Source: a virus
Strand: one strand, 5' to 3'
DNA length: 36,133 nucleotides
Virus record (IMG/VR): IMGVR_UViG_3300006128_000644
Span: 1-36,133 of that record
Positions 8,863 to 33,568 of this stretch are shown here, one piece after another (the stretch's first letter is position 1; every line of letters begins with the position of its first letter). Made by a program: the position numbers and the translations under genes. The notes below the pieces were generated by a model. The model saw only the letters and a program-made list of their open reading frames with translations. It was not told the DNA's origin and did no database searches.

Positions 8863-8893
8863 CAACCTTGACCAAATTGCAAGAGAAAAGGAT

Positions 8894-13000: not shown

Positions 13001-16000
13001 GCAGTATCGTCAGGGTGCCAACTAAAATCAAAACCATCAACATCAATATTGTCTGGTACTACCCAGTTTTTCATATTAGGTAGTTTCTTTGCTTTGGGTT
13101 CAGAAACATACTTGACTTCAGTTGCACCGTATACTTTGTATTGTGGTCCACCTGTTTTTTGCCATTGAGTTGCAAACTCATAGATATAAGGAGGATCCTT
13201 AGGATGTGGATGCCAACTAAAATCAAATTCAGTTGTATCTATACCTTTAGGTATAATCCAGTTATCAGTATTAGGTGCTAACTTAGCAACAACATCTGAC
13301 ACATATTTGAATTTCTTAGCACCTTCAACGCAATACTCTACTGTAGGCATTTCTTCTGCAGGATATTGTGTATTACCGAATTGGTAAATAAAAGGATCAT
13401 CTGTATCATCTGGATGCCAACTAAAATCAAAACTTGACATATCAATATCATATATCATATTCCAGTGGTTCATTGATGGCAAACGTTTTGCTTTAATAAT
13501 ACGTGTGTCAATATATTTTACAGGACTGTTTTTATGACAGCCTGGTGTAATATATTTTGGACCACCAGTCTTTTGCCATTGTGTACCAAAGATATAGATA
13601 TAAGGTTGATCTTCTACATAGGGATGCCAACTAAAATCAAAACTGTTTTCATCAATTAAATTACTATCGTATTGCCAATTCGTTTTATCAGGCAATGCAC
13701 GTGCAGTTTGATCTTCTACATATTTGATTTCTGTTGCCCCAGGTACAGTATATACAGGACCACCACTTAATGCCCACTGAGTTGCAAAGTTATAAATGTA
13801 TGGTGGACTTGTCGCATCTGGATGCCAACTAAAATCAAAATCAGTAATATCAATGTTAGTAGGTACAGTCCAGTTTTCTTCGGAAGGCAATCTTTTAACT
13901 TTGCATGTGTCAATATACTTTGTTTCAGTTGCACCTTCTACAATATATTTAGGACCGCCAGTCTTCTGCCACTGAGTTGCAAACTCATAGATATAGGGTG
14001 GGTCTTTGGGATTAGGCTTCCAACTAAAATCAAATCCTGTAGTATCAACGTTGTCGGGGATTTCCCAGTTAGTTCTATCTTGCCCTAGTGTAGCAATGAT
14101 ATCACTAACATACTTAACTTGTTTTGCCTTAGGAACACTATACTCTACTGTTGGCATAATCTCTGCTGGATACAAGTTATTACCAAACTGATAAATGTAA
14201 GGTTCTTCTGTTTCGTCAGGATGCCAACTATAATCAAAATCAATTATAACTAAGTTATCAAGTACAGCCCAGTTCTTTTGATTAGGTAAACGCTTTGCTT
14301 TTAATACACGTGTGTCTACATAACTAACTGGACTGTTCTTATGTACTCCAGGTGTAATATATCTTGGTCCACCTGTTTTTTGCCACTGTGTACCAAACTG
14401 ATAGATATAGGGTTCGTCTTCAGCATACGGATGCCAACTAAAATCAAAACTGTTTTCGTCAATCAACGTTGGATCAAAATCCCAATTATCTTTATTAGGA
14501 ATTGCCTTTGCCGATTGATCATCTACGTATTTTACTTCTGTTGCATTAGGAACAGTATATGTTGGTCCACCGCTTAATGCCCATTGCGTAGGGAAGTTAT
14601 AGATATAAGGAGGACTTGTTGCATCTGGATGCCAACTAAAGTCAAAGTTGCTAACATCAACATTCTTAGGAATAGTCCAGTTAGTCATATCAACTAACTT
14701 TTTAGCCTTTTGAAAGTCCATGTACTTTGTTTCAGTTGCACCCTCTACTACATAGCGAGGTCCACCTGTCTTTTGCCACTGCGTAGCAAATTCATAAATA
14801 TAAGGAGGATCATTAGGATTAGGTTCCCAACTAAAATCAAAGCCTGTTGTGTCAACATTGTCAGGAATAATCCAATTATCCATACAGAATTTACGAATAG
14901 CACGTTCATCCATGTATTGATATTCTGTTGCACCTTCAACTACATATTGAATACTAATCTTATCTTCTGCTTTGTTCCATTGATTGCCCCATGCATAGAT
15001 ATAAGGAGGCGCAGTTGGATTAGGTACCCAACTATAATCAATGCCATCGCTGTTTTCTAAAAATTCAAAGTTTTGCTTTTGTGGTAATAACTTTGTGTTA
15101 CTTGGCATGTGCTTTTCATCTGTAGCACCTTCCATCTTATAGATAAGTGTAGGCATGATAGTACTATCATACTGGTCATTGCCAAACACATAATTTAAAT
15201 TAGGTTCACGTGGATCAGGTCTCCATGTAAAATCAAATGTAGATTTATCTATAGGTAAAATGATATCCCACTTGTCCCATTGTGGTAGCACATCTATAGT
15301 ATCACCCATGTATTTTATTTCTGTAGCACCATCACACACATACTGCAACGTAGGTGTTATTTCAGCAGGTTCGTATTTATTGCCCCATGTATAAATGTAA
15401 GCCGGCTCACGTGGGTCGGGTCTCCATGTAAAATCAAATTTTGTTTTATCTACTTCTTTTAAAAGCGCCCACTTGTCCCATTCAGGTAATACTTCTAATT
15501 TTTCAGGCATGTACTTTTTATCAGTTGCGCCTGGTACATGATATTCAACAGTGGGTTTTAATGTACCATCAATATGTTTGTTACCCCATACGTAAATGTA
15601 TGGCGGATCCAATGGATTAGGTCTCCATGTAAAGTCAAATTTATTAGGATCAGGCTGTTGATAGAATACCCATTTATCTCTTTCAATCGTAAGTTCAACT
15701 GTTGTAGCCATGTATTTGACTTCAGTTGCATTAGGTGTATGATATTCTAATACAGGTTTTAATTGTACTGGTGCAAACTTTGAACCCCAGCGATAGATAT
15801 AGGGAGGATCAGTTGGGTCTGGATGCCAACTAAAATCAAATTTGTATTCGTCTATATTATCTAATAATACCCAGTTATCATTCTTTTCGTTTTTTCTAAC
15901 AACAGGGTCTACATCACTGCGATATATGATAACTTCACCTGGTTCTTTGGGGCATAACCATGTGCCACTGTCTTTTTGATGTTGGCTGGGCCAGACATTG

Positions 16001-16203
16001 TTATGTTCTTCTGCCCACACTTCTTCATCAGGTAAGAATTCAAAATCAAAATCCCAGTCGAATCCTCGATAGTCACAGAATTCATTGATGATCCAAAAGT
16101 GTTCGGTTGTACACTTTTCTCTTGCATCTTCTAATGATTCTGCAAATCTTTCTCTGGGGTGAACGTTTGGTTTATTTCCGTAATAGAATACATCTCTAAG
16201 CAT
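10042..16203 (-). CDS. giant FDFSWHP-repeat protein (2053 aa)
   Basis: About 22 units of ~60-75 residues follow the pattern FDFSWHPxxxxPPYIYxF(A/G)TQW, then GGPxYxxxGATExKY, then a Lys-rich link to NWxxPxNID. More divergent copies lie near the N-terminus (FDFEFLPDEE) and in the last 500 residues (FDFEYYP, FDFSYVCDP, FDWNWQP). Four successive unit types form a super-repeat of 266-269 residues. The C-terminal ~280 residues (DIVFLSNGETGADENY, GRAAAYHAAVEASETPWAFTVF) resemble a GT-A glycosyltransferase core without a clear DxD. No signal peptide or membrane segment is seen. The N-terminal ATG follows CTTAAATA by 4 nt. Function unknown; a scaffold or sugar-binding enzyme is possible. Confidence 0.85.
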   Translation of the reverse strand: MLRDVFYYGNKPNVHPRERFAESLEDAREKCTTEHFWIINEFCDYRGFDWDFDFEFLPDEEVWAEEHNNVWPSQHQKDSGTWLCPKEPGEVIIYRSDVDPVVRKNEKNDNWVLLDNIDEYKFDFSWHPDPTDPPYIYRWGSKFAPVQLKPVLEYHTPNATEVKYMATTVELTIERDKWVFYQQPDPNKFDFTWRPNPLDPPYIYVWGNKHIDGTLKPTVEYHVPGATDKKYMPEKLEVLPEWDKWALLKEVDKTKFDFTWRPDPREPAYIYTWGNKYEPAEITPTLQYVCDGATEIKYMGDTIDVLPQWDKWDIILPIDKSTFDFTWRPDPREPNLNYVFGNDQYDSTIMPTLIYKMEGATDEKHMPSNTKLLPQKQNFEFLENSDGIDYSWVPNPTAPPYIYAWGNQWNKAEDKISIQYVVEGATEYQYMDERAIRKFCMDNWIIPDNVDTTGFDFSWEPNPNDPPYIYEFATQWQKTGGPRYVVEGATETKYMDFQKAKKLVDMTNWTIPKNVDVSNFDFSWHPDATSPPYIYNFPTQWALSGGPTYTVPNATEVKYVDDQSAKAIPNKDNWDFDPTLIDENSFDFSWHPYAEDEPYIYQFGTQWQKTGGPRYITPGVHKNSPVSYVDTRVLKAKRLPNQKNWAVLDNLVIIDFDYSWHPDETEEPYIYQFGNNLYPAEIMPTVEYSVPKAKQVKYVSDIIATLGQDRTNWEIPDNVDTTGFDFSWKPNPKDPPYIYEFATQWQKTGGPKYIVEGATETKYIDTCKVKRLPSEENWTVPTNIDITDFDFSWHPDATSPPYIYNFATQWALSGGPVYTVPGATEIKYVEDQTARALPDKTNWQYDSNLIDENSFDFSWHPYVEDQPYIYIFGTQWQKTGGPKYITPGCHKNSPVKYIDTRIIKAKRLPSMNHWNMIYDIDMSSFDFSWHPDDTDDPFIYQFGNTQYPAEEMPTVEYCVEGAKKFKYVSDVVAKLAPNTDNWIIPKGIDTTEFDFSWHPHPKDPPYIYEFATQWQKTGGPQYKVYGATEVKYVSEPKAKKLPNMKNWVVPDNIDVDGFDFSWHPDDTAPPYTYQFPTQWALTGGPVYVVPNATIKKYEECQTARVLPSTKNWEYDATQIDVSSFDFSWHPYAEDDPFIYQFGTQWQKTGGPKYITPGTTADSPVKYVDTRIIKAKRLPNKDNFVVLPGFNIKEFDYSWHPDDTEPAYTYVFGNEWHSAEREPTLEYRVINSTDKKYINNVFAKLTPDMSLWDIPDNVDISKFDFSWHPDPHSPPYIYEFATVWQNRGGPKYKTPGATEVKYIEDIKAPLVPSKKNWLIPENVDVSTFDFSWVPHPLAPPYIYQFGTILDEKDGPRYLTPGNNGEIVYLDRIEVDPATLVEVKIGQYFIDTTLEDLVKKHPDEIFWAMQKNIDYSTFDFAWRPEVINIAWESDYVNVFGSPDSEVTQTYFVNAKSYLKGKTDFKFIEETAIDDKSLAKLFKKPDMFYVDKGNKESSARFELLKAKFPHIQKTRYLNSWVDTINRCTNRATTPILWILNSELDYSNFDFEYYPNPWQMKMVHVFGTQWSHWGTTFMVNRETFSNDTKYIKIIEHLSNLNFVKTNRAVATQCLYDIVLIDHGNINNVIELLQQKAGDKSVSVVKYDTSYLNTIRTVLSKQPDKRENYIWLCSSICDYTNFDFSYVCDPFAREQLHVFPSGKQKFGDTFFLDVNKAKELIKEIDSLEEYNKVNYNASLRVPRMPEPIIVTSDDTLVDAAKRIEGYPYAVLMTEDNKNIDVIDTEPMNLWSPETKTIMVTSTGASRIIVPRDVKDHVKTELYDYPYIKKSTKLAMSKPLDIVFLSNGETGADENYEHLLKVTKGIKNRVVRVDGVNGRAAAYHAAVEASETPWAFTVFAKLKVSAKFDWNWQPDRMQIPKHYIFQAKNPVNGLVYGHQAMIAYNKKLTLANEGKGLDFTLDDPHEVVQLLSGTAVYNTDAFSTWRTAFREVLKLRAEDSDIARERLHAWLNKAEGDFAQYSIKGAVDADEYYDEVNGDFDKIKLSYEWAWLRNMFDMS
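12415..14845 (-). repeat. 807-bp coding super-repeat, three copies plus partial
   Basis: The conserved block complementary to TTTGATTTTAGTTGG (encoding FDFSW) recurs throughout. The unit followed by EFAT occurs with its CCAACT at 14827, 14020, 13213 and 12415, giving periods of 807, 807 and 798 bp. Each period contains the ordered types EFAT, (N/Q)F(A/P)T-QWAL, FGT-QWQK-YITPG and FGN-PTxEY. Confidence 0.85.
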
Positions 16204-16207
16204 CTTG

Positions 16208-16215
16208 TATTTAAG
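16208..16215 (-). promoter_or_regulatory. late-promoter-like box CTTAAATA
   Basis: CTTAAATA ends 4 nt before ATG 16203 and includes the stop codon of the carbamoyltransferase gene. It differs from the consensus at two positions, so it is weaker evidence than the others; no Shine-Dalgarno is present. Confidence 0.35.
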
Positions 16216-17695
16216 AGTAAACTTTTACGCCATAAAGTTTTTCAAATCTATCTGCATCACTACGGTCATTGACCATTGGTTCGCCACGGATGTTTAGTGA
16301 TGTATTAAGCAATATTGGACATCCTGTGGCTTGATACCAAAGTTCTAAGAGAATTCTGATTCCACTTCCATCTTTAGGAACAGTCTGGACACGACTAGTG
16401 CCGTCAGCGTGAACGATAGCAGGAAATAGGTCAGGATGCCTACAAGTAGCGATGACTTGCATATACCTAGAGTTGTCCCAGCCAACAGGCATATCAAAGT
16501 AATCATGAACCAACTCCTCCAAAATGAGAGGCGCAAATGGTCTGAATTTTTGTCTACGTTTGATTTCATTTACTTTATCCTTAATTTCATCCCCACGGGG
16601 ATCCGCTAATAAACTTCTGTTACCTAAAGCACGTGGCCCAAACTCTGCACGACCACTTGCTATACCTACTATCTTACTATGTTTTAATTCTTTATACAAG
16701 TTTAAAATAGGATAACGACCAGGTATTTCGTGTCCTAAAAATGCATTCTTCCAATTTAACTTTTTACCATAGCCTAATGCTGCCGCACCTAAACTATTAC
16801 CTGCATCACCTGGATTAGGCATGATCCAAATTTTGCTAAAATGATTACCTAACAATCTATTTGCTAAACAGTTTAATGCAACACCGCCACCATATACTAG
16901 ATTACTGCTAGTACCCAATGATCTAGCCTTACGCATAATGATTTCAATTAGTTCTTCAGTAAGAAGTTGAGTTGATGCGGCGATATCCATATCGTTGGCA
17001 TTCTCTAAGAATTTTTCTCTTACTCCGGTGTGCAAGTTTTGTGCAAAATCTAAGTTATCTTTGTCTGACAAAAACTCACGACTAATTTCTTCACTGTGCA
17101 ATGCTTTGCCATATGCAACCATACCCATGAGAATGTATTCTTCATCTAATGGTTTCAACCCCACACGTTTTGTCATTGCTGAGTACATCAATCCAATGCT
17201 GTTAGGATATTGTTTACTCCATAGTTTTTCATAACGTGCCATACCATTTTTATCATAGTATGCATTATAAATGCTGATAGTGTCGAGTTCCCCAATAGCG
17301 TCAATAACTACTACAGTTGCATTGTCAAAGGGGCTAGTTTGGAATCCTGCTGCCGCATGTGTTAAGTGATGACTATGTGTTTTAATTGAACCACTACGAT
17401 CATTAAATTTATCAATGATATTTTCACCTAATAGTTTTTTCATATTAAGCGGTCCAACACTTTGTCCTGCTCTAAGTTGACGTATAGCCTTTACCCAGGG
17501 CTTTTCATAGTAGTGAACTTCATATAGGTCTCTAACATGTTTTTTAGCATCATGCACTAAATCAACACAAAGATTAGCATCATGTTTGATTTTACTGTAT
17601 CTTTCGCTGTGACCAGCAAATAGGATATCACCACTGTCATTAATGACAGTTATACCTGCATCATGAAAGCCGCAACTGATTCCTAAGTATTTCAT
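16211..17695 (-). CDS. NodU/CmcH/TobZ-type O-carbamoyltransferase
   Basis: The start is set at ATG 17695 because the family begins MKYLGISCGFHDAG; the longer frame at 17722 adds nine residues that overlap the upstream small gene. The product is 494 residues. It has the N-terminal Kae1/YrdC-like carbamoyl-adenylate domain with HHLTH (~109-113, metal site), GGGVALNC, NPGDAG, and the C-terminal FGPRALGNRS and RPFAP blocks. The family transfers carbamoyl from carbamoyl phosphate through carbamoyl-AMP to a sugar hydroxyl, as in Nod factor and tobramycin. The acceptor here is probably a sugar, given the neighbours. A perfect TATAAATA ends 5 nt before the ATG; no Shine-Dalgarno is seen. Confidence 0.93.
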   Translation of the reverse strand: MKYLGISCGFHDAGITVINDSGDILFAGHSERYSKIKHDANLCVDLVHDAKKHVRDLYEVHYYEKPWVKAIRQLRAGQSVGPLNMKKLLGENIIDKFNDRSGSIKTHSHHLTHAAAGFQTSPFDNATVVVIDAIGELDTISIYNAYYDKNGMARYEKLWSKQYPNSIGLMYSAMTKRVGLKPLDEEYILMGMVAYGKALHSEEISREFLSDKDNLDFAQNLHTGVREKFLENANDMDIAASTQLLTEELIEIIMRKARSLGTSSNLVYGGGVALNCLANRLLGNHFSKIWIMPNPGDAGNSLGAAALGYGKKLNWKNAFLGHEIPGRYPILNLYKELKHSKIVGIASGRAEFGPRALGNRSLLADPRGDEIKDKVNEIKRRQKFRPFAPLILEELVHDYFDMPVGWDNSRYMQVIATCRHPDLFPAIVHADGTSRVQTVPKDGSGIRILLELWYQATGCPILLNTSLNIRGEPMVNDRSDADRFEKLYGVKVYS

Positions 17696-17699
17696 GTGC

Positions 17700-17804
17700 T
17701 TATTTATAGATGAAAGGGTCACGCTTTTTTAATTCTTTGATACGTTTTCTATATTGTATCTCACGTTTGATTTTATTGTAAATTCTTTTTACCCAATTAA
17801 ACAT
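17700..17804 (-). CDS. small basic protein ending DPFIYK (34 aa)
   Basis: ATG 17804 overlaps the end of the SGNH gene (stop at 17797) and has AAAGGA eight to nine nt upstream. The 34-residue product starts MFNWVKRIYNKIKRE, is very rich in Lys/Arg, forms one likely amphipathic helix, and ends KKRDPFIYK. Short proteins of this shape occur in T4-like aquatic phages by my recollection. The last two sense codons and stop (TAT AAA TAA) create the late promoter of the next gene. Confidence 0.7.
   Translation of the reverse strand: MFNWVKRIYNKIKREIQYRKRIKELKKRDPFIYK
17701..17708 (-). promoter_or_regulatory. T4-type late promoter TATAAATA (carbamoyltransferase)
   Basis: A perfect TATAAATA ends 5 nt before ATG 17695. 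By the T4 geometry transcription would begin at the A of this ATG. The box lies inside the codons Tyr-Lys-stop of the 34-residue gene. Confidence 0.75.
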
Positions 17805-18552
17805 TGTTGTTTTCCTTTAAAAAATTATATAACTCTTCTGCGTAGAGTTGGTGGGGTACTTCATCGTGATGCCAGTATTTAGCCTTTGGATTAGTATAGC
17901 CCAAATTCTTGTACTTCCAAAAGAATGCATCATCTTTTTCTGAATCTAACTTATAATAGTTATTTCTGTCAATAAGTTTTGTTATTTGTGCTACATGAGG
18001 AGAATCTTTTGTAAACATATGCATAGCATTACACATTAGATATTTTACATTTTTGGATTTTAAAAAGTATTGAATCTGTAGCACGTAGTTTGCGCTCCAC
18101 ATTTCTAACATAGGCTCATTCTCAGCCATGAAACGATGGTATTTGGGAAACAATTCTTTTTCTTCGGGGTCACCGCCGTCCCAACCAAATGTGATTCTAA
18201 AATATGTATTGATTGTGTTGTCAAACCAATCGGCAGCCTTACTACTTACATTGTAAATAAAGTTTCTCGTAGATGGAACTTCCAATCTAACGCTTTCTGT
18301 CCATGAAGTCAATACAAAAACATCCATAGAGTTTTCATTATAGTTTTGATCAAACCAGTTTAATATGCTTCTAGCAATACAACTATTTGATGCACCATTG
18401 GTTGCAATATTAATAGGTCTATAACCCATCTTGTCTGCAAGTCGTGCACCAAAACTATGCTGTCTATTATAAACGCTGTCTTCTTGCCCGTTTATTTCTG
18501 ATCCAGCGGCATGGCTACATCCTGCAATTAACATTATTTTTTCTTTGTTCAT
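17797..18552 (-). CDS. SGNH/GDSL-like hydrolase
   Basis: The product is 251 residues and begins MLIAGCSHAAG (GCS at ~11-13 replacing GDS), has ATNGASNSCIARS (the Gly and Asn blocks) and FVLTSWTE, and ends with KYWHHDEVPHQLYAEELY in place of the usual DxxH block. It belongs with the two other SGNH proteins here (22935, 26783). SGNH enzymes act as esterases or as O-acyl transferases/deacylases on sugars. The catalytic Asp-His spacing is not canonical, so activity is uncertain. Its start overlaps the stop of the B12-radical SAM gene by ATGA. Confidence 0.75.
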   Translation of the reverse strand: MNKEKIMLIAGCSHAAGSEINGQEDSVYNRQHSFGARLADKMGYRPINIATNGASNSCIARSILNWFDQNYNENSMDVFVLTSWTESVRLEVPSTRNFIYNVSSKAADWFDNTINTYFRITFGWDGGDPEEKELFPKYHRFMAENEPMLEMWSANYVLQIQYFLKSKNVKYLMCNAMHMFTKDSPHVAQITKLIDRNNYYKLDSEKDDAFFWKYKNLGYTNPKAKYWHHDEVPHQLYAEELYNFLKENNNV

Positions 18553-20864
18553 GGTAATAAATGCTTTGGTCTTGTTCGTTTGATGCTGTCTAAAGTAATT
18601 ACGGTTGTTGCTGGCACAACTGATTTAACTTCAGTGCCCTCAAACGTTTCTTTTTCTGGCATAGACAAGTCTTTACTCTTGTCACGTTTCTGTTCTTTCT
18701 CTTCTAGTGTAACTACATAGTCCATGTAGTTACTCCAATCACCTGTGCCTTGCCACTTTAATTCAAAACTAAAATCAATAGTAGCATTAAGTACTGCTTC
18801 TTCATTTAATAAGTCAGCAAAGTCTTGTCCACTACGACCTTCTTCTTCACTCCAAGTTGCTTTTGCTAACTTTCTTGCACGTTTAACTGTGTTACTTTGC
18901 AAGCGTGAATAATCTTGTGCATAGAATGGGCCTTTACGACCTTCTGGTGGTGGTTTACGATCATCCCAAGGATTATCAATTTGTTCAAACTTAATATCAA
19001 AGTCTGCTTCCCATTGACCTTCATCAGTGATCTTAAACTTGTACTTTGCATAATACATTTCAGGACCAAACTGTTGGCCAAACTCTTTGATATCTAAGTC
19101 AGGGTGAAATAAGATTTCTGCTTCATAGCCACCACGTGCGCGCCATAGATTTCTAAAGAAAGGCCACATTTCATTTACTAATGCATTTGCAAATGGATTG
19201 TTTGAGTCAACAGGTGGAATGATATTGTAATCAAATTCTTCATAATGCATTTCTTTTTGTTTTGCAGGATTATTCAATCTGATGTTGTAATGACGCTGTG
19301 CAAGTGCATGACGTACAGGATATGTCACAGGAACTTCTGTGCAACCATTAAACATATCTAGCCAAATGTGAATGCACTTAACACGTGTCATAACGTGTGT
19401 GCCACCCATTTTTAAATCATTGCTGATCCAGTGACCTTGATATTTGTGCCACGATACATTGTATGCGTGTGGATTCTGTCCTACAATTGTTTCAGGACCT
19501 AATCCATATCCCACACCAAGACCCATGTTATTGATATTGTTGTTACGCATACGCCACATGAATGTCATTGTATCGCTATAGTCTTGATACTCTTCAGTGG
19601 GGAATCCAACGATCCAGTTAGTTGCGGCCCAGATGCCTACTTTTTTACAGTCAATAAAGTTCTGTTCCATTTCTTGAATGGTAACACCTTTGTGCATATC
19701 GTCTAATACTTTTTGTGATCCTGATTCACAACCAAAGTTAAACATAATGCATCCACCATCTGCTAAGTCTTGCAGATAGTCTAATGTCATACGACCATCG
19801 CAACGTGCATAACCAGTCCAACGAACCTTTAAGTATTTGGCTTTAAGTCCTAATGCAAATGCACGTAGTTCTTTAATATTACCATTGATCAAACTATCAA
19901 TGAACCAAATGATGTCAGTGCCTTTGTTGTAGTATAACCATTCAACTTCGGTAATTAAGTCAACACTTTGACGTTGACGATATTTCCAAAAGTGTGTTTC
20001 TTCACAGAATGTACACTTTGCTGTACATCCACGACTAATCTCACTGTTAACTCCATTAGGTACTTCGTACAAACTAAAGTCAATACTCTCATAGTCTGGC
20101 ATAGGAAGACCATTGATATTGATACGTTGATCTTCAGGCTGTGTTAATACTCTGGCTGCACCACTGTGATCTGATCCTGCTTCGATTTCATCAAGCATTA
20201 CTAATAAATTCTGTTCGCCTTCACCTACAATAACATAATCATAATAGTCTTCAATCTTAAACCAACTCTTGTGTACATTAGGCCCACCAACTGCAATCTT
20301 AATATGAGGTGCTCTACGTTTAATTTCTTGGCACATCCATTTGCTAGGCTCTTCGCTAATGTAATAGATACTGAATCCAACAACACTTGGGTTCATTTCA
20401 ATAATCTTGTCTACTGCTTCGCTAAGAATAGGTTCTAACACAGGATGAATATCATTCATGTACGTGTCACCTAACCAGTGCCATGAACTTGCAGGGTCCC
20501 AAAGTCTAAATGGTAATTTCTTGTTTGGTTGCCAATCATCACGATAAGCATTATATGCTTTAACATTCAAGTCCATGATGTGCGTTTCGTATCCCGCACT
20601 TTTTGCCACACCACTAAGTCTAGCAAGACTAAATGGGGGCATATAGGGACTCCATTCAGGGCATAGTACAAGCACAAGTTTAGTGTTTCTTGTCTTGTAA
20701 TCTACATATACCGGAGTAAGATTCTTTTGATTTACTACTACTGATTTGGCATAAGGGGCAATGGCTTCCATCATGCTACGATGGCGTGCATCTGCTATAT
20801 CTTCTGTTGGTCTTTCTTTTGGCTTTAACTCGTCTACAGCCAAACTACGTAAATTAAAATCCAA
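18549..20864 (-). CDS. B12-binding radical SAM enzyme (771 aa)
   Basis: A TTG start at 20864 is supported by AGGAG six nt upstream; no better ATG is near. Residues ~60-230 form a cobalamin-binding Rossmann domain (LVLVLCPEW, GYETHIMDLN, VVGFSIYYIS, IAVGGPNV, VIVGEGEQNL). The radical SAM motif C280-x3-C284-x2-C287 (CTAKCTFC) follows. The ~250 C-terminal residues are rich in Trp and acidic residues and contain no domain I know. The family methylates or rearranges unactivated carbons. A TCTAAATA box lies 20 nt upstream with a normal leader. It is likely part of the sugar-modification block, but the substrate is unknown. Confidence 0.88.
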   Translation of the reverse strand: MDFNLRSLAVDELKPKERPTEDIADARHRSMMEAIAPYAKSVVVNQKNLTPVYVDYKTRNTKLVLVLCPEWSPYMPPFSLARLSGVAKSAGYETHIMDLNVKAYNAYRDDWQPNKKLPFRLWDPASSWHWLGDTYMNDIHPVLEPILSEAVDKIIEMNPSVVGFSIYYISEEPSKWMCQEIKRRAPHIKIAVGGPNVHKSWFKIEDYYDYVIVGEGEQNLLVMLDEIEAGSDHSGAARVLTQPEDQRININGLPMPDYESIDFSLYEVPNGVNSEISRGCTAKCTFCEETHFWKYRQRQSVDLITEVEWLYYNKGTDIIWFIDSLINGNIKELRAFALGLKAKYLKVRWTGYARCDGRMTLDYLQDLADGGCIMFNFGCESGSQKVLDDMHKGVTIQEMEQNFIDCKKVGIWAATNWIVGFPTEEYQDYSDTMTFMWRMRNNNINNMGLGVGYGLGPETIVGQNPHAYNVSWHKYQGHWISNDLKMGGTHVMTRVKCIHIWLDMFNGCTEVPVTYPVRHALAQRHYNIRLNNPAKQKEMHYEEFDYNIIPPVDSNNPFANALVNEMWPFFRNLWRARGGYEAEILFHPDLDIKEFGQQFGPEMYYAKYKFKITDEGQWEADFDIKFEQIDNPWDDRKPPPEGRKGPFYAQDYSRLQSNTVKRARKLAKATWSEEEGRSGQDFADLLNEEAVLNATIDFSFELKWQGTGDWSNYMDYVVTLEEKEQKRDKSKDLSMPEKETFEGTEVKSVVPATTVITLDSIKRTRPKHLLP

Positions 20865-20914: not shown

Positions 20915-22786
20915 TTAAGTCATAGGTTTAAAGTGAAGGATTACTCCGTTTTGCATAGACTTATCCTTCATTGGATACATTCCTACCAATTTTAAATTAT
21001 TGACTTTAGCCATATGTTCCATTTTTTCATAATAATGATTTTCAATCAAGTAAACATCGGCATCAGCAGTTAAATGTTTTGATATATTATTGAAGAATTC
21101 GCCGTGAATCTTAAAATCAGGATCAATAACAAGTCTGGCAGTATTTTCTAAAATAAAGTCAAACATTTCACTATTTTTGTTGAGCATATCTGCTTTAAAA
21201 TCTTCGTAAGTAATATCACTATGGGGAGGGTTACTGATAACTAAATCCCATTTTTCGCTATCAGGGATATCAGCAATATTAGGAGTCAAATATGTTGTAA
21301 CATAATTTGATAGATTATTGTTCTTTGCTGTTTGTTTGCAGTTTTCAATGGCTGGTTCAAACATATCTGAAAATACAATATAGTTACAGATTCCCAAACC
21401 CAGCATTTCGTAACCTAATACGCCAAAGCCAGCACACCATTCAAAGCCTCTGTTATAGACATACTTTCCTGTCTTTTTAATAACTTCAATTAAGTCATCT
21501 CTAAAGTATAATCCACCACCGTCAATTTTTTTAGGGTGCTTAATCATTATACCACTTTTTAATCTTATGGTATCGATATGGTCTAATGATTCTCTGTATT
21601 GTTTTTCTTTAGTTTGTCTTGTATTACCGTAATGTACTGTTTGTTTTGATGTTCCGTTGTATTGACGCCATGGATCAATAACTACCGCAGTATTTGGCAA
21701 TTGCAAATCAGTAACATATTTGTCCCAATAACCAATCATATAAACATCTGTGGTATCTGTTTTGAGATCGGTGTCCCCTGTGTGAACATCATAGTAATTT
21801 ACGTTACCACCTAACTCAGTGACATAATGTCCAACTAACAAACTACTGCTACCGTTAGTATAATTTACGTTAGGCTTATATGCTTTGCCAATGATAGTTA
21901 CATTGTTACCATATTTTAAACACTTTTGTGCAAGTCTTTTTGCCTGCACTTCTCTAGCAGTCATAATGCTATCAAACAAATCATAACCTAAATTTAATTT
22001 ATCTGCTAGATAACGTAATGCAATGTTATCACGTGGATGACATGCACCACCATCGCCCATACCTGCTTTCATATATGCAGGGCCCATGATGCGATATGTT
22101 GACTTTGCTAATGCGTTAGTAACAACGTCAACATTAATATTGCCACTAGTCTCTGCAACGTCTTGAATCATATTTACTAATGCAAGTTTTGTACTAATAA
22201 AGGTGTTATAGAAAATCTTGATTGCTTCGGCTTCGTCCCAAGTACCAACTTCAATGCGTGGATTGTTTTGCATTAATGGTGCATAAAAGTCAATCAACTC
22301 ACTTGCATCACCTGTTATTGATCCGTCTTCAGTTCCAATGATAATCATCTCAGGATTAACAAAGTCATCAGCAACAGTGCCCATAGCAATCAAGTATGGG
22401 TTATAAATGAAACGTGCATTAGTAATGTAATTGATAAAACGACTTCGAACAGTGCCCGGTAGCACAGTACTAATCAATACAACAAGTTGATCTTTACTAA
22501 CATATTTGTTGATTTCGTTCAATGTGTTAGTAACAATACTATAATCAAAATCTGTATTGGGTAAATGACTTGATGGTGTTTCTCCACCATATCTAGGGTC
22601 ATGTGGGGTTGGTACAGCAATAAAAATGATATCTCTATCTTGTACTGCCTCTTGTATGCTACTTTTCATTGGAAAACTAGCATTTACGTGTACGCTATCG
22701 AACCCAACAACATCGTATTGTTGAGCCATTACAGTGGCGCAGGGTTCGCCTAATTTTCCTACCCCGATCATTGCAACCTTTTTCAT
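20915..22786 (-). CDS. sugar-nucleotide 6-dehydrogenase fused to a methyltransferase
   Basis: The product is 623 residues. Residues 1-385 are a UDP-glucose/GDP-mannose dehydrogenase: NAD-binding GVGKLG (8-13), ISTVLPGT (105-112), Lys190 and Asn194 (KIFYN), catalytic Cys249 in GDGGACHPRD, and IGKAYKPN (299-306) of the sugar-binding domain. Residues ~420-623 are a class I methyltransferase with WCAGFGVLGYE (450-460), VFSDMFE and motif IV SNPPH (518-522), the NPPY-like motif of RsmC/HemK-type enzymes. The dehydrogenase oxidises C6 of a nucleotide sugar; the methylated target is unknown. Both halves keep their key residues. ATG 22786 lies 5 nt after TATAAATA without a Shine-Dalgarno. Confidence 0.88.
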   Translation of the reverse strand: MKKVAMIGVGKLGEPCATVMAQQYDVVGFDSVHVNASFPMKSSIQEAVQDRDIIFIAVPTPHDPRYGGETPSSHLPNTDFDYSIVTNTLNEINKYVSKDQLVVLISTVLPGTVRSRFINYITNARFIYNPYLIAMGTVADDFVNPEMIIIGTEDGSITGDASELIDFYAPLMQNNPRIEVGTWDEAEAIKIFYNTFISTKLALVNMIQDVAETSGNINVDVVTNALAKSTYRIMGPAYMKAGMGDGGACHPRDNIALRYLADKLNLGYDLFDSIMTAREVQAKRLAQKCLKYGNNVTIIGKAYKPNVNYTNGSSSLLVGHYVTELGGNVNYYDVHTGDTDLKTDTTDVYMIGYWDKYVTDLQLPNTAVVIDPWRQYNGTSKQTVHYGNTRQTKEKQYRESLDHIDTIRLKSGIMIKHPKKIDGGGLYFRDDLIEVIKKTGKYVYNRGFEWCAGFGVLGYEMLGLGICNYIVFSDMFEPAIENCKQTAKNNNLSNYVTTYLTPNIADIPDSEKWDLVISNPPHSDITYEDFKADMLNKNSEMFDFILENTARLVIDPDFKIHGEFFNNISKHLTADADVYLIENHYYEKMEHMAKVNNLKLVGMYPMKDKSMQNGVILHFKPMT

Positions 22787-22810: not shown

Positions 22811-22957
22811 CTAGTCAGAAATAATATGTGTTGTATGTTGTGATAACAGTATTTTATTATAGTGTAACACAGGTGTCAACTCTTTTATCCATTGTCTGAT
22901 TTCTGGTTTGGTCATTTTTAGTAATCTTTCCACTTCATCCATAATAGCCAAAAGTCT
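22811..22957 (-). pseudogene. C-terminal relic of an EKT-type glycosyltransferase-like gene
   Basis: The frame from about 22957 to TAG 22811 reads RLLAIMDEVERLLKM and continues as a helical stretch with W and a YN near its end. This matches the end of the 409-residue protein (RIYAIVDEVERLCKM, then EWLNNV, then DYNYRLL). The similarity continues upstream of ATG 22942 into a frame that overlaps the last codons of the SGNH gene (stop 22935), so it is not simply a 43-codon gene. It looks like what remains of a deleted paralogue. It could still be translated as 43 residues from ATG 22942. Confidence 0.6.
22851..22879 (-). promoter_or_regulatory. possible sigma-70 promoter
   Basis: TTGACA (22874-22879), 17-nt spacer, TAAAAT (22851-22856). 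It lies inside the relic frame, so its use as a promoter is uncertain. Confidence 0.4.
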
Positions 22958-23657
22958 CTTCAATTGTTTCTTTGATATATTCTGCTAGTTGTTTATGTCC
23001 CAGTGTGCTTGGGTGATGATCTTTTTCACTAATTCTTTCGTATTTCCAATCGTGTCTACCTGATGATTCTAACCAATTGTATCTATCCATAAAAAATCTT
23101 TTGTAGGGAGGTGGCATATTACCATGTGTAGCACAATAACTCCAATAGTAATATTTGATACCATATGATTTAAATATACTTGCTAATGATTCACAATGAG
23201 TGATGTGTTGATAAAGACCCTCAATATCTGTATAATTTTCATAACGTTTTTGTGAATCTATAAACATTTCTTCATAAGAACTTCTGTCTTTTAATTCAGT
23301 CTTGCTAATAACAGTTCCTACTTTAACTCTTGCCCATCGATCAGGTAAACTTTCAAAACTATTATTCATATCCTTAGGATAATAATATTCGTAGCGTGAA
23401 GGTTCAGTCCATTGAATTACTGCTGTAGTATTCTGTAATGTTTCTGGTGTTTGTTGCCATATCCATTCTAATGTGGTTCTAATAATGCGTTGGTTACTAC
23501 CGCATCCTTCAGCCAAATTAACATGTCTGTCAAAATTCATTAATGTTTTTAATTGTGCTGGCCATGTAATTTCATTACGTAGTGTTTCATCGTCATATAA
23601 GTTATCTAACCCGCCACCATAGGTCCAACTACAACCATTTGTAAATAATATTTTCAT
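22935..23657 (-). CDS. SGNH/GDSL-like hydrolase
   Basis: The product is 240 residues. It starts with TNGCSWTYGGG (Cys-Ser at 9-10 of the GDS-like block), has NLAEGCGSNQRI (Gly and Asn blocks) and WTEPSR, and ends with DHHPSTLGHKQLAEYI, a slightly shifted form of the DxxHP block. It would hydrolyse or transfer acyl groups, most likely on a glycan given its neighbours. Its start overlaps the glycosyltransferase-like gene by ATGA (23654-23657), the same pairing as at 27679-27682. The last residues (ETFGYYG) are read over relic sequence, so the C-terminus may have been replaced. Confidence 0.8.
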   Translation of the reverse strand: MKILFTNGCSWTYGGGLDNLYDDETLRNEITWPAQLKTLMNFDRHVNLAEGCGSNQRIIRTTLEWIWQQTPETLQNTTAVIQWTEPSRYEYYYPKDMNNSFESLPDRWARVKVGTVISKTELKDRSSYEEMFIDSQKRYENYTDIEGLYQHITHCESLASIFKSYGIKYYYWSYCATHGNMPPPYKRFFMDRYNWLESSGRHDWKYERISEKDHHPSTLGHKQLAEYIKETIEETFGYYG

Positions 23658-24883
23658 TTTGCTTGAAATCCTCTACGTTTCAAAAGTCTATAGTTATAAT
23701 CACATATACGTTCTACATTATTTAACCACTCTTGTGTTTCTGTTTCATTCATTTTACATAAACGTTCTACTTCGTCAACGATAGCATAAATTCTTTGTTC
23801 ATCATTTTCTATTAAATCATATGATTCATCAATATAAGGACTAAATGTTTTATAACCCAATTCACGCAATTCTCTTAAAAAATAAGGTGTGCTAGCCACA
23901 ATAAAAGGATGTTTTGCTTTTATGGGTTTCCATGTTTTTTCAGTTACAAAATGGCAAGGATAACACCAAGTTGCTAGTCTATAGTTTAAAGTGCTGGTAT
24001 CCATATTACTCAAAAATAATGTTTCAGATATTAAACTAAACAATGATGTTTGATAAAACACTTCATCTTCTTTAGTTACTTTCCCCATGTTACTTAAATC
24101 TTGCTTTAATGATAAATTTATAGGCAATCTATCTTGAATTGTGGACACATATTCTTTGATCATTTTACTAAAATTAGAAATAGGTTCGTATTGATATTGG
24201 TATATCGACTGAGGAGTATCTACCATAGAATAATATGATAACTCCAACAAATCTCGTTTTATTAGTTCACCCAATAAAAACAATCTATGCGGTCTTGCTA
24301 CACCATTTAAAAACAAAAACTTTTTTGTTGAGTTTGGATTTGAATTAAATTCAATCTCTTCAATATGTGCGTCACGATTAGCATATTTACATTGTAAATA
24401 TTCAAAATAGTTGTGATAAACTATTTGTGTTGGAAGATAATTGTTTTTTATGCAGTAATCATAATACAGTTTTCTGTTATTTACCGTATCGGATGCTCCT
24501 GTCAAATATACAATATCGTTATAATTTATTTTATATTCCAATACTAGTTTTTTAACAAATGCATCTGTAAATTTTAAAAAGTTGAAATCAAACGCTTCAC
24601 TTGGTAATGCTAGAACAATATAGTATTGGCCCGATTTATTTGCTATTTCTTCTAATATATATTTTATTGCACTCTCTGTTTTTTCTTTGACTTCATTAGG
24701 GTTTGAAATATTAGTAGATTCGTGTATATAAATTATTTCAGAGGTAGTAACCGGCTTATTAAAAGCCTTTTCTAAAATAGATGCGGCGAGGTCTAAACAC
24801 CATGGCCAATCTTCAACGCACTTTCTTAAATCGGTCATTGGGCCTTGTCTGGCAGGTACAGCGTTTATTTCTTCGTGATCCAT
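23654..24883 (-). CDS. glycosyltransferase-like protein, EKT-type family
   Basis: The product is 409 residues. Family blocks are FLFLNGVARPHR (~189-200), LGELIKRDLLELSYYSM (~204-220), TEKTWKPI-x3-HPFIV (315-328), LGYKTFSPYIDESYD (~343-356) and the helical end DEVERLCKM. The N-terminal ~185 residues include IVYLTGAS, as in the 447-residue paralogue (IIYLTGCM). A GT-B-like sugar transferase is the best guess; no direct proof. It overlaps the upstream B12-radical SAM gene by 19 nt and the downstream SGNH gene by ATGA. Confidence 0.65.
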   Translation of the reverse strand: MDHEEINAVPARQGPMTDLRKCVEDWPWCLDLAASILEKAFNKPVTTSEIIYIHESTNISNPNEVKEKTESAIKYILEEIANKSGQYYIVLALPSEAFDFNFLKFTDAFVKKLVLEYKINYNDIVYLTGASDTVNNRKLYYDYCIKNNYLPTQIVYHNYFEYLQCKYANRDAHIEEIEFNSNPNSTKKFLFLNGVARPHRLFLLGELIKRDLLELSYYSMVDTPQSIYQYQYEPISNFSKMIKEYVSTIQDRLPINLSLKQDLSNMGKVTKEDEVFYQTSLFSLISETLFLSNMDTSTLNYRLATWCYPCHFVTEKTWKPIKAKHPFIVASTPYFLRELRELGYKTFSPYIDESYDLIENDEQRIYAIVDEVERLCKMNETETQEWLNNVERICDYNYRLLKRRGFQAK

Positions 24884-26790
24884 GACTTACCAAAATTTCT
24901 ACGTCTTGCAAAAAAGATTTGTTCACAGAATCTTTGCAATGATTGATCTTTATCTTCAGGGAAATCAAATTCATATTCACAAGGGCTAACCAATTCACTA
25001 GCATCTTGCACGTAACTAGGGATATCATGCTTAAAGGATAGTACCTTAGGATAGTTTGCAATGTCTTTGTGATCAACCAAATAATTTCTTTGGAATATCA
25101 TTAGTTCTTGTAATAAACTTTCTTCAATATCAAACTCAGTATGCAAGAAATCTTCAATTACATCAAACACATGTTTGTGTTTATCTTCACTATGTATATT
25201 AATTGTCGTACTATGCACTAAATTCCATCCATGAATTTCCATACCTTGAATCGGAGTATGATCAATGCGACCATACTTACCCCAGTTTTGATAGTGTTCT
25301 GCAATACGATGAATCTCACTTGCTAGCCAAGGATCCTTTTCAATGTGTGCATACAACTTTTCATAGAATTCACGATACTCTATTCCCTTAAGTTTATACA
25401 ACACACGGCTGATGTAGTTAGTGATACCATTAATGTGAAATGTGTTCTGAAACCAACTGTGTACTTGTGCTTGCGTCATCTTTTCAATTGGCAAGTCACG
25501 GGTAGAAATAACAACTTCAACACCTTCACGCAATTCATGTTCGTTATATGTACCAACAAGATAATCATACACAACACGACCTTCTAACTTGTAGAGTTTA
25601 CGCTGTGTTAAATTCATTTCAGCATTTTCAAGTAACTGTGCTTGATAGATTGTGATACCAGTGTGGTTACCACTCTTATATAGTTTATAAAAGTTTTCCT
25701 TCCAACTGTCTAATGTTTCACCGGGCAATCCTAAAATCAATTCTGTGTATAATGGGATGTTGTGTTCTTCACACATCTTAAACACTTCTTCAATCTTGTT
25801 CATCTCTAAGTTCTTACGCTTAATGATGTCCAATACATTGTCATCCATTGATTGTACGCTTAGATTCAATCCAATCTTTGCACCACCTTCATAAATTAAC
25901 TTGCGCACAATGTCAACAACTTCTTGCTTTTGATTCTTTGCCCATGCAATTGTATATGCTTTGGGATTACCATAAGTCTGTTGTACTTCAATTAGTTTGT
26001 CAGCAATAAGACCATCACGCTCAGGGAAGATACCAAAGTTGGCATCAGTAAAACTAACAAAGTCTAATCCCTTTTGACCAATCCATTCTAATTCAGCATA
26101 TACACGTTCTAAGTTAAACTTCTTAACTTTGTTGTATGTTAAACTTCCCCAGTCGCAGAATGTACATGCATAAGGGCATCCGCGATTTGTTTCTAGTGTT
26201 GCATTCCAACGAATCTCAGGATGCTTTGCCATTAGTTTGTCAAAGATACCTGTTAAATATGGACTAGGAATTGTGTCTAATTCGTCAATGCGTGGGCTAC
26301 TACCTGTGTCGATAGTTTTGCCGTTATCATTGATAAGCAAGCCTGGAATATCAGTAAAAGTATCGCCTGTATGCAAATTCTCTAATATTCTTCTAAAAGA
26401 TATTTCGCCTTCAAGTTTAACACATACATCAATGAAAGGATACTTTTCAAAGAACCCTTCTTTTTCAATAGGATATTCAGGTCCACCTGCAATGATAAAG
26501 ATATCTGGATTAGCCTTCTTTAGTTCTCTACCAAGAACTGCACTATAACTACGATTCCAAATATAAGTGCTGAAGCCAACAATAGCACTATCTTTTAATA
26601 ATTCTACTGCTTCTTCAATATAATCTCTACGCCAAATGAATTCCCCAAGTTCATAATGATCACTGATATGAGGGAATTGGTTTACGTAACTCCATAATAC
26701 CGCAGGGCTATAAGGCAAGTAGAAAGCATTATACTCTTTCGGACCTTGCTGAAAGTTTGGACTTACGAAACTTATTTTCTTTTTAGGCAT
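24865..26790 (-). CDS. B12-binding radical SAM enzyme (641 aa)
   Basis: The product is 641 residues. Residues ~5-140 are a cobalamin-binding-type domain (ISFVSPNF, IVGFSTYIWN, IFIIAGGPEYP) without an obvious DxHxxG His, and the radical SAM motif C205-x3-C209-x2-C212 (CPYACTFCDWG) follows, then IGLNLSVQS and ILGLPGET typical of the BchE/RlmN-neighbour superfamily. The ~200-residue C-terminal part is helical and Trp/His-rich. It resembles the 771-residue protein in layout but not closely in sequence. Overlaps of 8 and 19 nt with its neighbours show it is coupled to the SGNH and glycosyltransferase-like genes. Confidence 0.88.
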   Translation of the reverse strand: MPKKKISFVSPNFQQGPKEYNAFYLPYSPAVLWSYVNQFPHISDHYELGEFIWRRDYIEEAVELLKDSAIVGFSTYIWNRSYSAVLGRELKKANPDIFIIAGGPEYPIEKEGFFEKYPFIDVCVKLEGEISFRRILENLHTGDTFTDIPGLLINDNGKTIDTGSSPRIDELDTIPSPYLTGIFDKLMAKHPEIRWNATLETNRGCPYACTFCDWGSLTYNKVKKFNLERVYAELEWIGQKGLDFVSFTDANFGIFPERDGLIADKLIEVQQTYGNPKAYTIAWAKNQKQEVVDIVRKLIYEGGAKIGLNLSVQSMDDNVLDIIKRKNLEMNKIEEVFKMCEEHNIPLYTELILGLPGETLDSWKENFYKLYKSGNHTGITIYQAQLLENAEMNLTQRKLYKLEGRVVYDYLVGTYNEHELREGVEVVISTRDLPIEKMTQAQVHSWFQNTFHINGITNYISRVLYKLKGIEYREFYEKLYAHIEKDPWLASEIHRIAEHYQNWGKYGRIDHTPIQGMEIHGWNLVHSTTINIHSEDKHKHVFDVIEDFLHTEFDIEESLLQELMIFQRNYLVDHKDIANYPKVLSFKHDIPSYVQDASELVSPCEYEFDFPEDKDQSLQRFCEQIFFARRRNFGKSWITKK

Positions 26791-27682
26791 ATCCTCGCAA
26801 CTTTATAAATTCTGCTAACTCATCTGCAATTACTTTGTAACCCTTGGTTGTTGGGTGTGAACCGTCGCAATTAGTCAAGTATTCAGCAGGCCAATCACGT
26901 TGTTTATAAAACTGATAAAATCCTCCCCATTGCATTGGATCCATTAATCCATCACACCAAACAAGTTTTTGCATAAATGCAATATAGGGGACTTCATCGT
27001 GTATGTATCCATTCCAATCAAATTTATTTGCCAATGAACCCGCGTTCTCTTGTAGATAGTATTTAATACCTTGTGGATTATGATGATTAAATGCATTAGC
27101 AATTACCACTTTAAATCCATGTGCTTTTGCAAATGCCTGTAAATCTAATAGTGCCATCATTTGCTCACAGGCAGCAAACTGTTCACTCCATAACATTTTT
27201 GCATAGCAGTTCCAAAGCGGCCCCTCCTCACCACCATTATCTGGTGCTGGCCACATTGTTCTCCATTTATTATGTTCAAACTCACCATTACTGTATCCAT
27301 CTGGTTGAGTAATTCGATGATCACTAATGGTTTTGGGATGTTCTCTAAAGAAGTCAAAACGCTCAACACCGGACATCATAAACACAATAATACCTGTGCT
27401 ATTACTCCAATCAATGTTGTCTACAAAGTGTAGTTGATGAACGGCTGCTCTGTTGCCAATACCCTTAATTCCCAAATTCAATGGGGTATAATCAGGGAAA
27501 TGATCACGTGCTAATTGGTTAACCCAACTATTTTCGAGTTCATATTTGCGTAAGTGGTAATCATTTTTACCCCTATTACTAATCTGTACTCTACCGTTAT
27601 ATTGTTTAACGATTTCGTCCGGGTATCCACCTTCACCCTGTGTCCAACTACAACCCAATCCGATAATATATTTCTTTTTCAT
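26783..27682 (-). CDS. SGNH/GDSL-like hydrolase
   Basis: ATG 27682 is chosen because it forms the ATGA overlap with the upstream stop; the frame at 27694 only adds four residues. The product is 299 residues with GLGCSWTQGEGG (block I), LNLGIKGIGNRA (Gly and Asn blocks), FMMSGVERFDF, and a canonical CDGSHPTTKGY (Asp-x2-His) near the end. It is the most complete SGNH enzyme of the three here. Probable sugar O-acyl esterase or acyltransferase. It follows a glycosyltransferase-like gene, repeating the pairing at 23654-23657. Confidence 0.85.
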   Translation of the reverse strand: MKKKYIIGLGCSWTQGEGGYPDEIVKQYNGRVQISNRGKNDYHLRKYELENSWVNQLARDHFPDYTPLNLGIKGIGNRAAVHQLHFVDNIDWSNSTGIIVFMMSGVERFDFFREHPKTISDHRITQPDGYSNGEFEHNKWRTMWPAPDNGGEEGPLWNCYAKMLWSEQFAACEQMMALLDLQAFAKAHGFKVVIANAFNHHNPQGIKYYLQENAGSLANKFDWNGYIHDEVPYIAFMQKLVWCDGLMDPMQWGGFYQFYKQRDWPAEYLTNCDGSHPTTKGYKVIADELAEFIKLRGYA

Positions 27683-28755
27683 TTTGCTAACCAAGGCTCC
27701 ATCATATTTAACATTTGCTGGTATCCATTACCATACAATTTATAATCAGTAGTTTCTGTTAAAAACTGTAATGATTTGGGCACCATTTTTTCTTTAATAC
27801 TACCATAATCTAAAAATTTTTGTCTGTTATACAACATTTTAGGTAATAGAGTTTTATGAATCTTTTTTATCTTACTTAAGTCCCACTGTACAATTTTATT
27901 TAAATTGTCAATGATTCCTTGTATTCTATCATTAATGTCTGGCATACTATCAAAACTATAATCGAATAATTCGTCATATAATACTAGTCCATAGTCTTCA
28001 ACTAGATTTTTGTGATAGTTTTCACAAGACAAAATCAGAAATGGCTTTAAACCAACAATAGGTTTACATGTTTTTTCTGTTACAAAAAAATTATTAGTGC
28101 CAAACGAACTTTCAGTTACTATATCAATAAATCCTTTGAAATAACTTCTAGCAAAACTATTAGGACTATATTCAGGAATCTTGCTAAGTACAAAATCGTC
28201 TTCGTCAATCAATTTAGATCCGTCGTGATATTTCCATGTAAAACCTATGTTGTTAGGTGATTGTACTCTTTCAGGAAATTGAAATGTAACTATGCCATGT
28301 TGAAATAAATTATGCTTTGCTAATTGATCTACTAATAACCCACGTTCATATTTAGGATTGTTATTATAGCAAGTAAACCATTTTTCTGCTTGGATTTCTT
28401 GATAAGGTTCAATTCGTGTGAAGTTTGAATTTACAGTTTTAAAAAGTTCTTGTCTGCATCTATCATAATTTACAACATAATATCCATATGTTTTTTCAAT
28501 AATAACGTTTGGTGCTAGTTCTAAACCATCAGGCCCCGAACAAAATATAATTAATTTTTTATTATTTTCTACTAACCAATCTGAAATTCCACTAATAAAA
28601 TTATTAAAAATAAATTCAGGTTGATATTCGTAAATGCAATTTGCAAACAATAAATCAGGATTTAATTGTTTAACTTCATCAATTTCTTTTTGCCAGTCAT
28701 ATTTGTGACCCGGCATAGGAAGATTATTGCAGTATACAAAATAAGCAGTGATCAT
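27679..28755 (-). CDS. glycosyltransferase-like protein, EKT-type family
   Basis: The product is 358 residues. It has CYNNNPKYERGLLVDQLAKHNLFQHGIVTF, here shown by its parts YNNNPKYERG and KHNLFQHG, then FVTEKTCKPIVGLKPFLI, GLVLYDELFDYSFDS and a helical end. It is closest to the 365-residue protein at 5689, with which it shares YDELFDYSFDS. The basic HR motif of the other copies is weaker (YERG). Likely sugar transferase or a degenerate relative; unproven. ATGA overlaps on both sides. Confidence 0.62.
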   Translation of the reverse strand: MITAYFVYCNNLPMPGHKYDWQKEIDEVKQLNPDLLFANCIYEYQPEFIFNNFISGISDWLVENNKKLIIFCSGPDGLELAPNVIIEKTYGYYVVNYDRCRQELFKTVNSNFTRIEPYQEIQAEKWFTCYNNNPKYERGLLVDQLAKHNLFQHGIVTFQFPERVQSPNNIGFTWKYHDGSKLIDEDDFVLSKIPEYSPNSFARSYFKGFIDIVTESSFGTNNFFVTEKTCKPIVGLKPFLILSCENYHKNLVEDYGLVLYDELFDYSFDSMPDINDRIQGIIDNLNKIVQWDLSKIKKIHKTLLPKMLYNRQKFLDYGSIKEKMVPKSLQFLTETTDYKLYGNGYQQMLNMMEPWLAK

Positions 28756-33307: not shown

Positions 33308-33308
33308 C

Positions 33309-33566
33309 TTATGCCTTGAAAAGTTTTAGTGATGAAAATGTCATTGGTACTTTGATTAAATCACGTACTGTGATTTCAATTTCGTTAGTATCTGTATCAA
33401 TCATAACCTTTGCATCGGCTTCTTTGCCAAATGTTTCTAATACATCTGCCATGATTTGATCACAAATTTCTTCAGTAAAAGGTGTTTTATCGACATACTT
33501 TGCCATGATGTCTTTTACCATACCTTGTAATCTTACGTCTTTATTTCCTGCTTCAAAAGTTGCCAT
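33309..33566 (-). CDS. small acidic protein between radical SAM genes (85 aa)
   Basis: The product is 85 residues without Cys, signal peptide or membrane segment. The first 50 residues look helical (MVKDIMAKYV, ICDQIMADVLETFG has its single Cys within the helix), followed by beta strands (AKVMIDTDTNEIEITVRDLI). I do not recognise it. It has a good GAGGAA site and lies 2 nt from radical SAM genes on both sides, so it should be made in step with them. It could be a partner, carrier or substrate; it has no Gly-Gly leader cleavage site or Cys-rich core to mark it as a peptide precursor. Confidence 0.75.
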   Translation of the reverse strand: MATFEAGNKDVRLQGMVKDIMAKYVDKTPFTEEICDQIMADVLETFGKEADAKVMIDTDTNEIEITVRDLIKVPMTFSSLKLFKA

Positions 33567-33568
33567 GT

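Follow-up and report, generated by a model that had tools for sequence, protein, structure and literature searches.

A virus record of 36.1 kb (IMG/VR), analysed over its whole length of 36,133 nucleotides and hereafter called the window, encodes a nucleotide-sugar dehydrogenase-like domain fused to a small methyltransferase (MT) with an NPPH motif. The open reading frame (ORF) encodes a genuine two-domain protein. We read it as a putative bifunctional tailoring enzyme of a phage glycan-building operon, with a probability of about 0.6. The ORF runs from an ATG at 22786 to a stop codon at 20915-20917 without internal stops; an initial annotation had given its boundaries correctly, and its strand is minus. 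The domains and diagnostic codons are as follows.

20915-22786, minus: fused ORF, dehydrogenase-like domain plus NPPH methyltransferase, 623 aa
21617-22786, minus: UDP-glucose/GDP-mannose dehydrogenase-like domain, residues 1-390 (Pfam, PHROG, UGDH fold match, L008 end)
22394-22396, minus: Tyr131 codon, in place of the invariant catalytic-loop Glu141 (human E161); Tyr in 62/62 homologues
22217-22219, minus: Lys190 codon (Lys204 of S. pyogenes UGDH), kept in 62/62
22040-22042, minus: Cys249 codon (catalytic Cys260), kept in 62/62
21953-21955, minus: Arg278 codon, in place of the invariant Asn287; Arg in 62/62
21578-21616, minus: short interdomain linker of low confidence, residues ~391-403 (pLDDT)
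20918-21577, minus: small SAM methyltransferase domain, residues ~404-623 (phrog_35227 family, Pfam, motifs)
21512-21523, minus: DGGG, MT family motif, residues 422-425
21413-21442, minus: EWCAGFGVLG, SAM-binding motif I, residues 449-458
21221-21232, minus: NPPH, motif IV, residues 519-522

Both halves were recognised by profile searches. Pfam matched the ORF above cut-off with UDPG_MGDP_dh_N (E 5e-18; 65.7 bits, gathering score 27), UDPG_MGDP_dh (E 3e-17; 63 bits, gathering score 25.4) and MTS (E 6e-8), while the C-terminal domain of the dehydrogenase scored below its cut-off (20.4 versus 30 bits). Among PHROGs, residues 3-358 matched phrog_9148, annotated as UDP-glucose dehydrogenase (E 3.5e-96), and residues 406-612 matched phrog_35227, of unknown function (E 1.4e-22). 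The dehydrogenase domain closes with ...DPWR...HYGNTR. An AlphaFold2 model of the 623-aa fusion has a mean pLDDT of 87 with both domains confident, and the linker falls to 57 at residues 391-400 and below 50 at residues 400-402. The pTM of 0.68 does not fix the relative arrangement of the two domains, and in the underlying alignment the MT-only rows have ~45 residues misplaced at the N-terminus. In a PDB fold search with this model, the best 50 matches listed were all UGDH (E 1e-18 to 1e-20).

The fusion recurs among related phages. A second IMG/VR record (L002) encodes an identical protein, and the UGDH–MT order is found at 58-71% identity in L003-L006, L041/L087/L088 and L007, giving at least four lineages. 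Six proteins of 1,027-1,054 aa (L029, L031, L032, L036, L040 and L105) carry a glycosyltransferase of the TEK type, described below, between UGDH and MT, and three loci (L023, L025 and L033) have a separate UGDH gene followed by a TEK–MT gene. The closest unfused relative, L008, is 84% identical and lacks exactly the MT; it shares the flanks of the fusion, in that its UGDH likewise ends in ...HYGNTR and the intergenic sequence that follows downstream is also the same, and is a natural 'empty site' for the MT. A merger of two genes by sequencing or assembly error, which the initial annotation had named as the case against its own reading, is excluded by the independent relatives and the L008 empty site. 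We found no point in favour of such an artefact, the independently assembled relatives of 58-71% identity and the tri-domain versions speak against it, and we regard it as vanishingly improbable.

Well-supported branches of the UGDH tree force at least three gains or losses of the UGDH–MT state. Where dS is unsaturated, dN/dS is 0.04-0.13 for both domains, and purifying selection acts on both. The MT motifs are intact in every fused copy except L007 (1180-2970), which has NPLH for NPPH, has lost DGGG and reads FLN where motif II normally has the acidic FSD, with its UGDH half intact. The recurrent and variable fusions, the empty site, the lability on the tree and the motif loss in L007 together mark the MT as an accessory, swappable tailoring module.

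The fusion is also unusual, as had been supposed: among 50,697 phage genomes and 72,556 plasmids, no record had 80% of it covered in one place. Each half has a known fold, and a similar protein without MT annotation is already public. This entry, A0A6J5TB28 (BFVD/UniProt; uncultured Caudovirales phage), is 44% identical to the fusion over 577 alignment columns, is longer (788 aa) and is annotated solely as a UDP-glucose/GDP-mannose dehydrogenase. What is new is how the domains combine, the altered active site and the associations of the MT family.

Eighteen residues are invariant across 229 nucleotide-sugar dehydrogenases (PMC4794789). Fifteen are kept in all 62 phage homologues aligned, among them the equivalents of Thr118, Lys204, Asn208, Cys260 and Asp264 (Asp253 in the window). 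The equivalent of Gly257 is Gly in the window and Ala in 18/62, and that of Glu145 is Met in 61/62 (Met135 in the window). The window protein does not carry the full set of 18, and its TIGR03026 score is below cut-off (162.6 versus 189.8 bits). With the UDPG_MGDP_dh superfamily it shares the fold, the NAD-binding GxGxxG, Thr107, Lys190, Asn194, Arg232, Cys249, Asp253 and Lys304; it differs in Glu141 to Tyr131, Asn287 to Arg278, Glu145 to Met135 and the attached MT. We place the dehydrogenase half in the NDP-sugar 6-dehydrogenase superfamily, as a divergent representative. That both halves keep their catalytic motifs, as the initial annotation held, is right for Lys190, Cys249, WCAGFGVLG and SNPPH. 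It is wrong for the NPE glutamate (Tyr131) and Asn287 (Arg278), so that the claim is borne out in part, both replacements being present in 62/62.

In human UGDH, whose E161 we equate with Glu141 from the common NPE motif, the E161Q mutant traps the thiohemiacetal intermediate (PMC3184952; PDB 3khu). Because the matching residue is lost here, full four-electron oxidation cannot be assumed, and conversion of UDP-glucose to UDP-glucuronate by the window dehydrogenase is uncertain. With Tyr in place of Glu141 and Arg in place of Asn287, the dehydrogenase may make no acid, a point against the reading preferred below.

The NPY signature is common to all 62 homologues, including those of Synechococcus phage Bellamy and Pelagibacter phage HTVC008M (phrog_9148), which are 51-62% identical to window residues 1-394. 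Unlike the window protein, these are unfused and adjoin a NadE-like enzyme and separate methyltransferases. Since loss of NPE extends to homologues on a Rhizobium plasmid (MPAFSAMG) and in a 642-kb phage genome (NPFFIAMG), we regard the NPE-less dehydrogenases as a subfamily. Its neighbours in cyanophages and a megaphage include a NadE-like amide synthetase, at 11/61 loci, and, at 6/61, a methyltransferase unrelated to the fused MT. The Rhizobium gene (L157:11995-13164) shares its tight operon with genes for a nucleoside deaminase and for a class I methyltransferase. In the 642-kb genome (L172:5237-8071; LR756502.1), genes for a NadE-like enzyme, an NPE-less dehydrogenase and a methyltransferase stand side by side; phage Bellamy has these three genes too, arranged differently.

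The MT half carries the motifs of the phrog_35227 family (DGGG, EWCxGxGxLG, NPPH and DxxxxIHxEF) and matches its profile. PDB 9l4q, deposited as 'Methyltransferase small domain-containing protein', also matches the family profile (E 5.4e-39), which makes it a member; it has DGGG, EWCxG, NPPH and DxxxxIH in common with the window MT. Unlike the latter, 9l4q is standalone, as are the phage and bacterial copies of the family. No paper in the literature searched named 9L4Q or an NPPH methyltransferase, and neither this literature nor the curated families searched gave a function for the 9l4q/phrog_35227 family.

The curated families scoring nearest to the MT are PrmC/HemK and RsmC, all far under their cut-offs. 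The initial annotation had called the MT RsmC-like, an identity that we reject at 17.2 bits against an NCBIfam cut-off of 295; PrmC/HemK identity is rejected likewise (22.9 versus 199.1 bits), and the score is also far below the PrmB cut-off. PrmC/HemK, an N5-glutamine methyltransferase that methylates an amide nitrogen, is the nearest curated family and resembles the MT in its (N)PP motif; its release-factor-binding domain is absent from the window MT.

In bacteria, a standalone MT gene directly adjoins a NodU-type carbamoyltransferase in L145, L147, L148 and L152 and lies near one in L146, these loci standing among sugar-activation genes; other bacterial copies lack a neighbouring NodU. Few new loci came from surveys of three bacterial phyla, so the family is rare there, and a plasmid search for standalone relatives gave no match. 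Among phages, the neighbours of standalone MTs are genes for SGNH, epimerase and the repeat protein, or else ribonucleotide reductase, gp32-like and helicase genes (gp41-mazG). Several phage contigs with a standalone MT, themselves fragments, have no detectable NodU, and NodU occurs in sister operons without MT. NodU is therefore not an obligatory partner of the MT, and a universal NodU–MT partnership is unsupported: many contigs with a standalone MT show no NodU, fragmentary as these are. Two standalone MTs (L090:9953-10615 and L102:9953-10645) have NPPW for NPPH; each is immediately preceded by a ribonucleotide-reductase-like gene and followed by a glutaredoxin-like one.

The fusion is embedded in a minus-strand array. 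In order of transcription, this comprises SPASM radical-SAM proteins, TEK, GDP-mannose 3,5-epimerase, TEK, SGNH, B12-radical-SAM, TEK, SGNH, the fusion, B12-radical-SAM, SGNH, NodU carbamoyltransferase and a 2,053-aa repeat protein.

29732-31075, minus: third TEK-type putative glycosyltransferase (L002 copy, 447 aa, matches TEK query; in alignment A5)
28752-29735, minus: GDP-mannose 3,5-epimerase homologue (PDB 2c59, plant enzyme, E 8.7e-105)
27679-28755, minus: second TEK-type putative glycosyltransferase (L002 copy, 358 aa, matches TEK query; no Pfam family)
23654-24883, minus: putative GT-B-fold glycosyltransferase, TEK family (homologue of the domain between UGDH and MT in sister phages)
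22935-23657, minus: SGNH-hydrolase-like protein (DUF6071; Pfam)
22811-22957, minus: C-terminal remnant of a TEK glycosyltransferase (RLLAIMDEVERLLKMTKPEIRQWIKE...), directly upstream of the fusion (read from sequence)
18549-20864, minus: B12-binding radical SAM enzyme, directly downstream of the fusion (Pfam)
17797-18552, minus: SGNH-like protein (DUF6071, weak; Pfam)
16211-17722, minus: NodU-like O-carbamoyltransferase (Pfam Carbam_trans_N/C, phrog_1601)

TEK proteins are present in many copies per operon and share the motifs ..TEKTWKPI..HPFI..GYKTF..ESYD. Their Pfam matches are weak, all below cut-off, and they belong to no Pfam family; when modelled, the window copy adopts a GT-B fold and weakly resembles trehalose-phosphate synthases (TM 0.37-0.41). 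A further TEK protein is probably encoded at 5689-6786. The TEK remnant overlaps the end of the SGNH gene (22935-23657) out of frame and resembles L003:415-1617 (...VMAIMDEVERLCNMTDDETREWL), where the TEK gene is intact at the equivalent place; we read it as a recombination scar. The GT-B-fold TEK proteins, the GDP-mannose 3,5-epimerase and NodU underlie our reading of the array as a sugar operon. The epimerase suggests GDP-L-galactose or GDP-L-gulose as a building block; it belongs to the family of the plant vitamin-C pathway enzyme.

Several other genes accompany the array. The 36-kb fragment encodes seven radical-SAM/SPASM proteins (24865-26790, 18549-20864, 31080-36102 and 8894-10045, all minus), two of them with B12-binding domains. 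The 2,053-aa protein (10042-16203, minus) contains many divergent repeats of the form FDFSWHPDxxxPPYIYxFxTQWxxxGGP; its homologues accompany the operon in 17/61 loci, and one precedes the standalone MT in L111. At 7576-8961 (minus), a 461-aa product with a TSPPYY motif and a weak N6_N4_Mtase match is a second amino-methyltransferase-like member of the operon, unrelated to the fused MT. A T4 gp23 capsid gene was present in 9/21 contigs tested (contigs with related operons or the MT), several of which exceed 300 kb; the operon carriers are freshwater T4-like phages, partly jumbo phages.

On our preferred reading as a tailoring enzyme, the dehydrogenase half, with NAD binding and a Cys/Lys/Asn/Asp active site kept, would oxidise a nucleotide sugar at C6; without the NPE glutamate, the last oxidation step may be slowed or redirected. 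The MT half would then carry out SAM-dependent methylation of the oxidised sugar unit or of the glycan carrying it, and fusion to a dehydrogenase or glycosyltransferase would keep successive steps together. The domains, the recurrent and modular fusion, the conserved residues and the operon are observed, whereas we infer both activities, the substrate, the N-methylation and a part in glycosylating surfaces or virions. The initial annotation had proposed that methylation acts on the product of C6 oxidation or on a partner of the enzyme within one complex. This is plausible, since sister phages attach the MT to a glycosyltransferase and since dehydrogenases of this subfamily also stand next to an unrelated methyltransferase, in cyanophages and a megaphage.

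The methyl target would most likely be a planar nitrogen, and the sole obvious one in the operon would be the carbamoyl group from the NodU homologue. We favour this nitrogen because bacterial MTs lie beside NodU-type genes and because the MT profile is nearest to PrmC/HemK, which acts on an amide nitrogen; that the MT methylates the group installed by NodU is nonetheless a tentative proposal, and rather unlikely to hold in this exact form. A bolder version, which we consider distinctly improbable, is that the NPY subfamily would not hydrolyse the thioester to an acid and would instead either stop at the C6 aldehyde or pass its Cys-bound acyl group on to an amine, the MT then N-methylating the resulting amide or a carbamoyl group. 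A guanidino target arising from an operon amidinotransferase was rejected as a general solution, since no amidinotransferase lies near the MT in the window, L041 or L025. A literature search on N-methylcarbamoyl biosynthesis found none; albomycin, with the AbmE carbamoyltransferase and the AbmI N-methyltransferase, is a candidate parallel.

The main alternative is that the dehydrogenase makes an ordinary NDP-uronic acid, on which the MT forms a methyl ester, an O-methyl ether or an N-methyl amide, the carbamoyl group being irrelevant. The direct fusion of the two domains fits this, and the NadE-like (11/61) and methyltransferase (6/61) neighbours fit an acid and then an amide, with methylation. 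The freshwater operons, however, contain no recognised NadE-like or other amide-forming gene, the invariant Glu is missing and NPPH suggests a nitrogen target; we judge this alternative possible, if somewhat unlikely.

RsmC, TrmN6, PrmC and DNA methylases methylate nucleic acid or protein, and the MT could do the same, fused merely for convenience of expression. Its MTS/PrmC-like sequence with the (N)PP motif is compatible with such a role, as is the position of standalone phage MTs among replication and nucleotide-metabolism genes. Against this, the scores lie far below the RsmC, PrmC and PrmB cut-offs, the bacterial neighbours are sugar and carbamoyltransferase genes, and the MT is repeatedly attached to UGDH and to a glycosyltransferase, which makes a nucleic-acid or protein substrate improbable. 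A non-catalytic structural or regulatory MT half would explain why L007 retains the domain despite NPLH, the lost DGGG and FLN, but it sits poorly with the intact motifs of all other fused copies and with purifying selection, and we consider it very improbable.

Few four-electron oxidases are as well studied as the nucleotide-sugar dehydrogenases, and a family-wide replacement of Glu141 in dehydrogenases recurrently tied to methyltransferases poses a concrete biochemical question. For the MT family (9l4q, phrog_35227), whose structure is solved, adjacency to carbamoyltransferases offers a first testable substrate. The operon indicates large, dedicated glycan pathways in freshwater T4-like phages, some with contigs >300 kb. 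An NPY enzyme that releases no acid, coupled to N-methylation, would, if true, be a new glycan modification made by jumbo phages.
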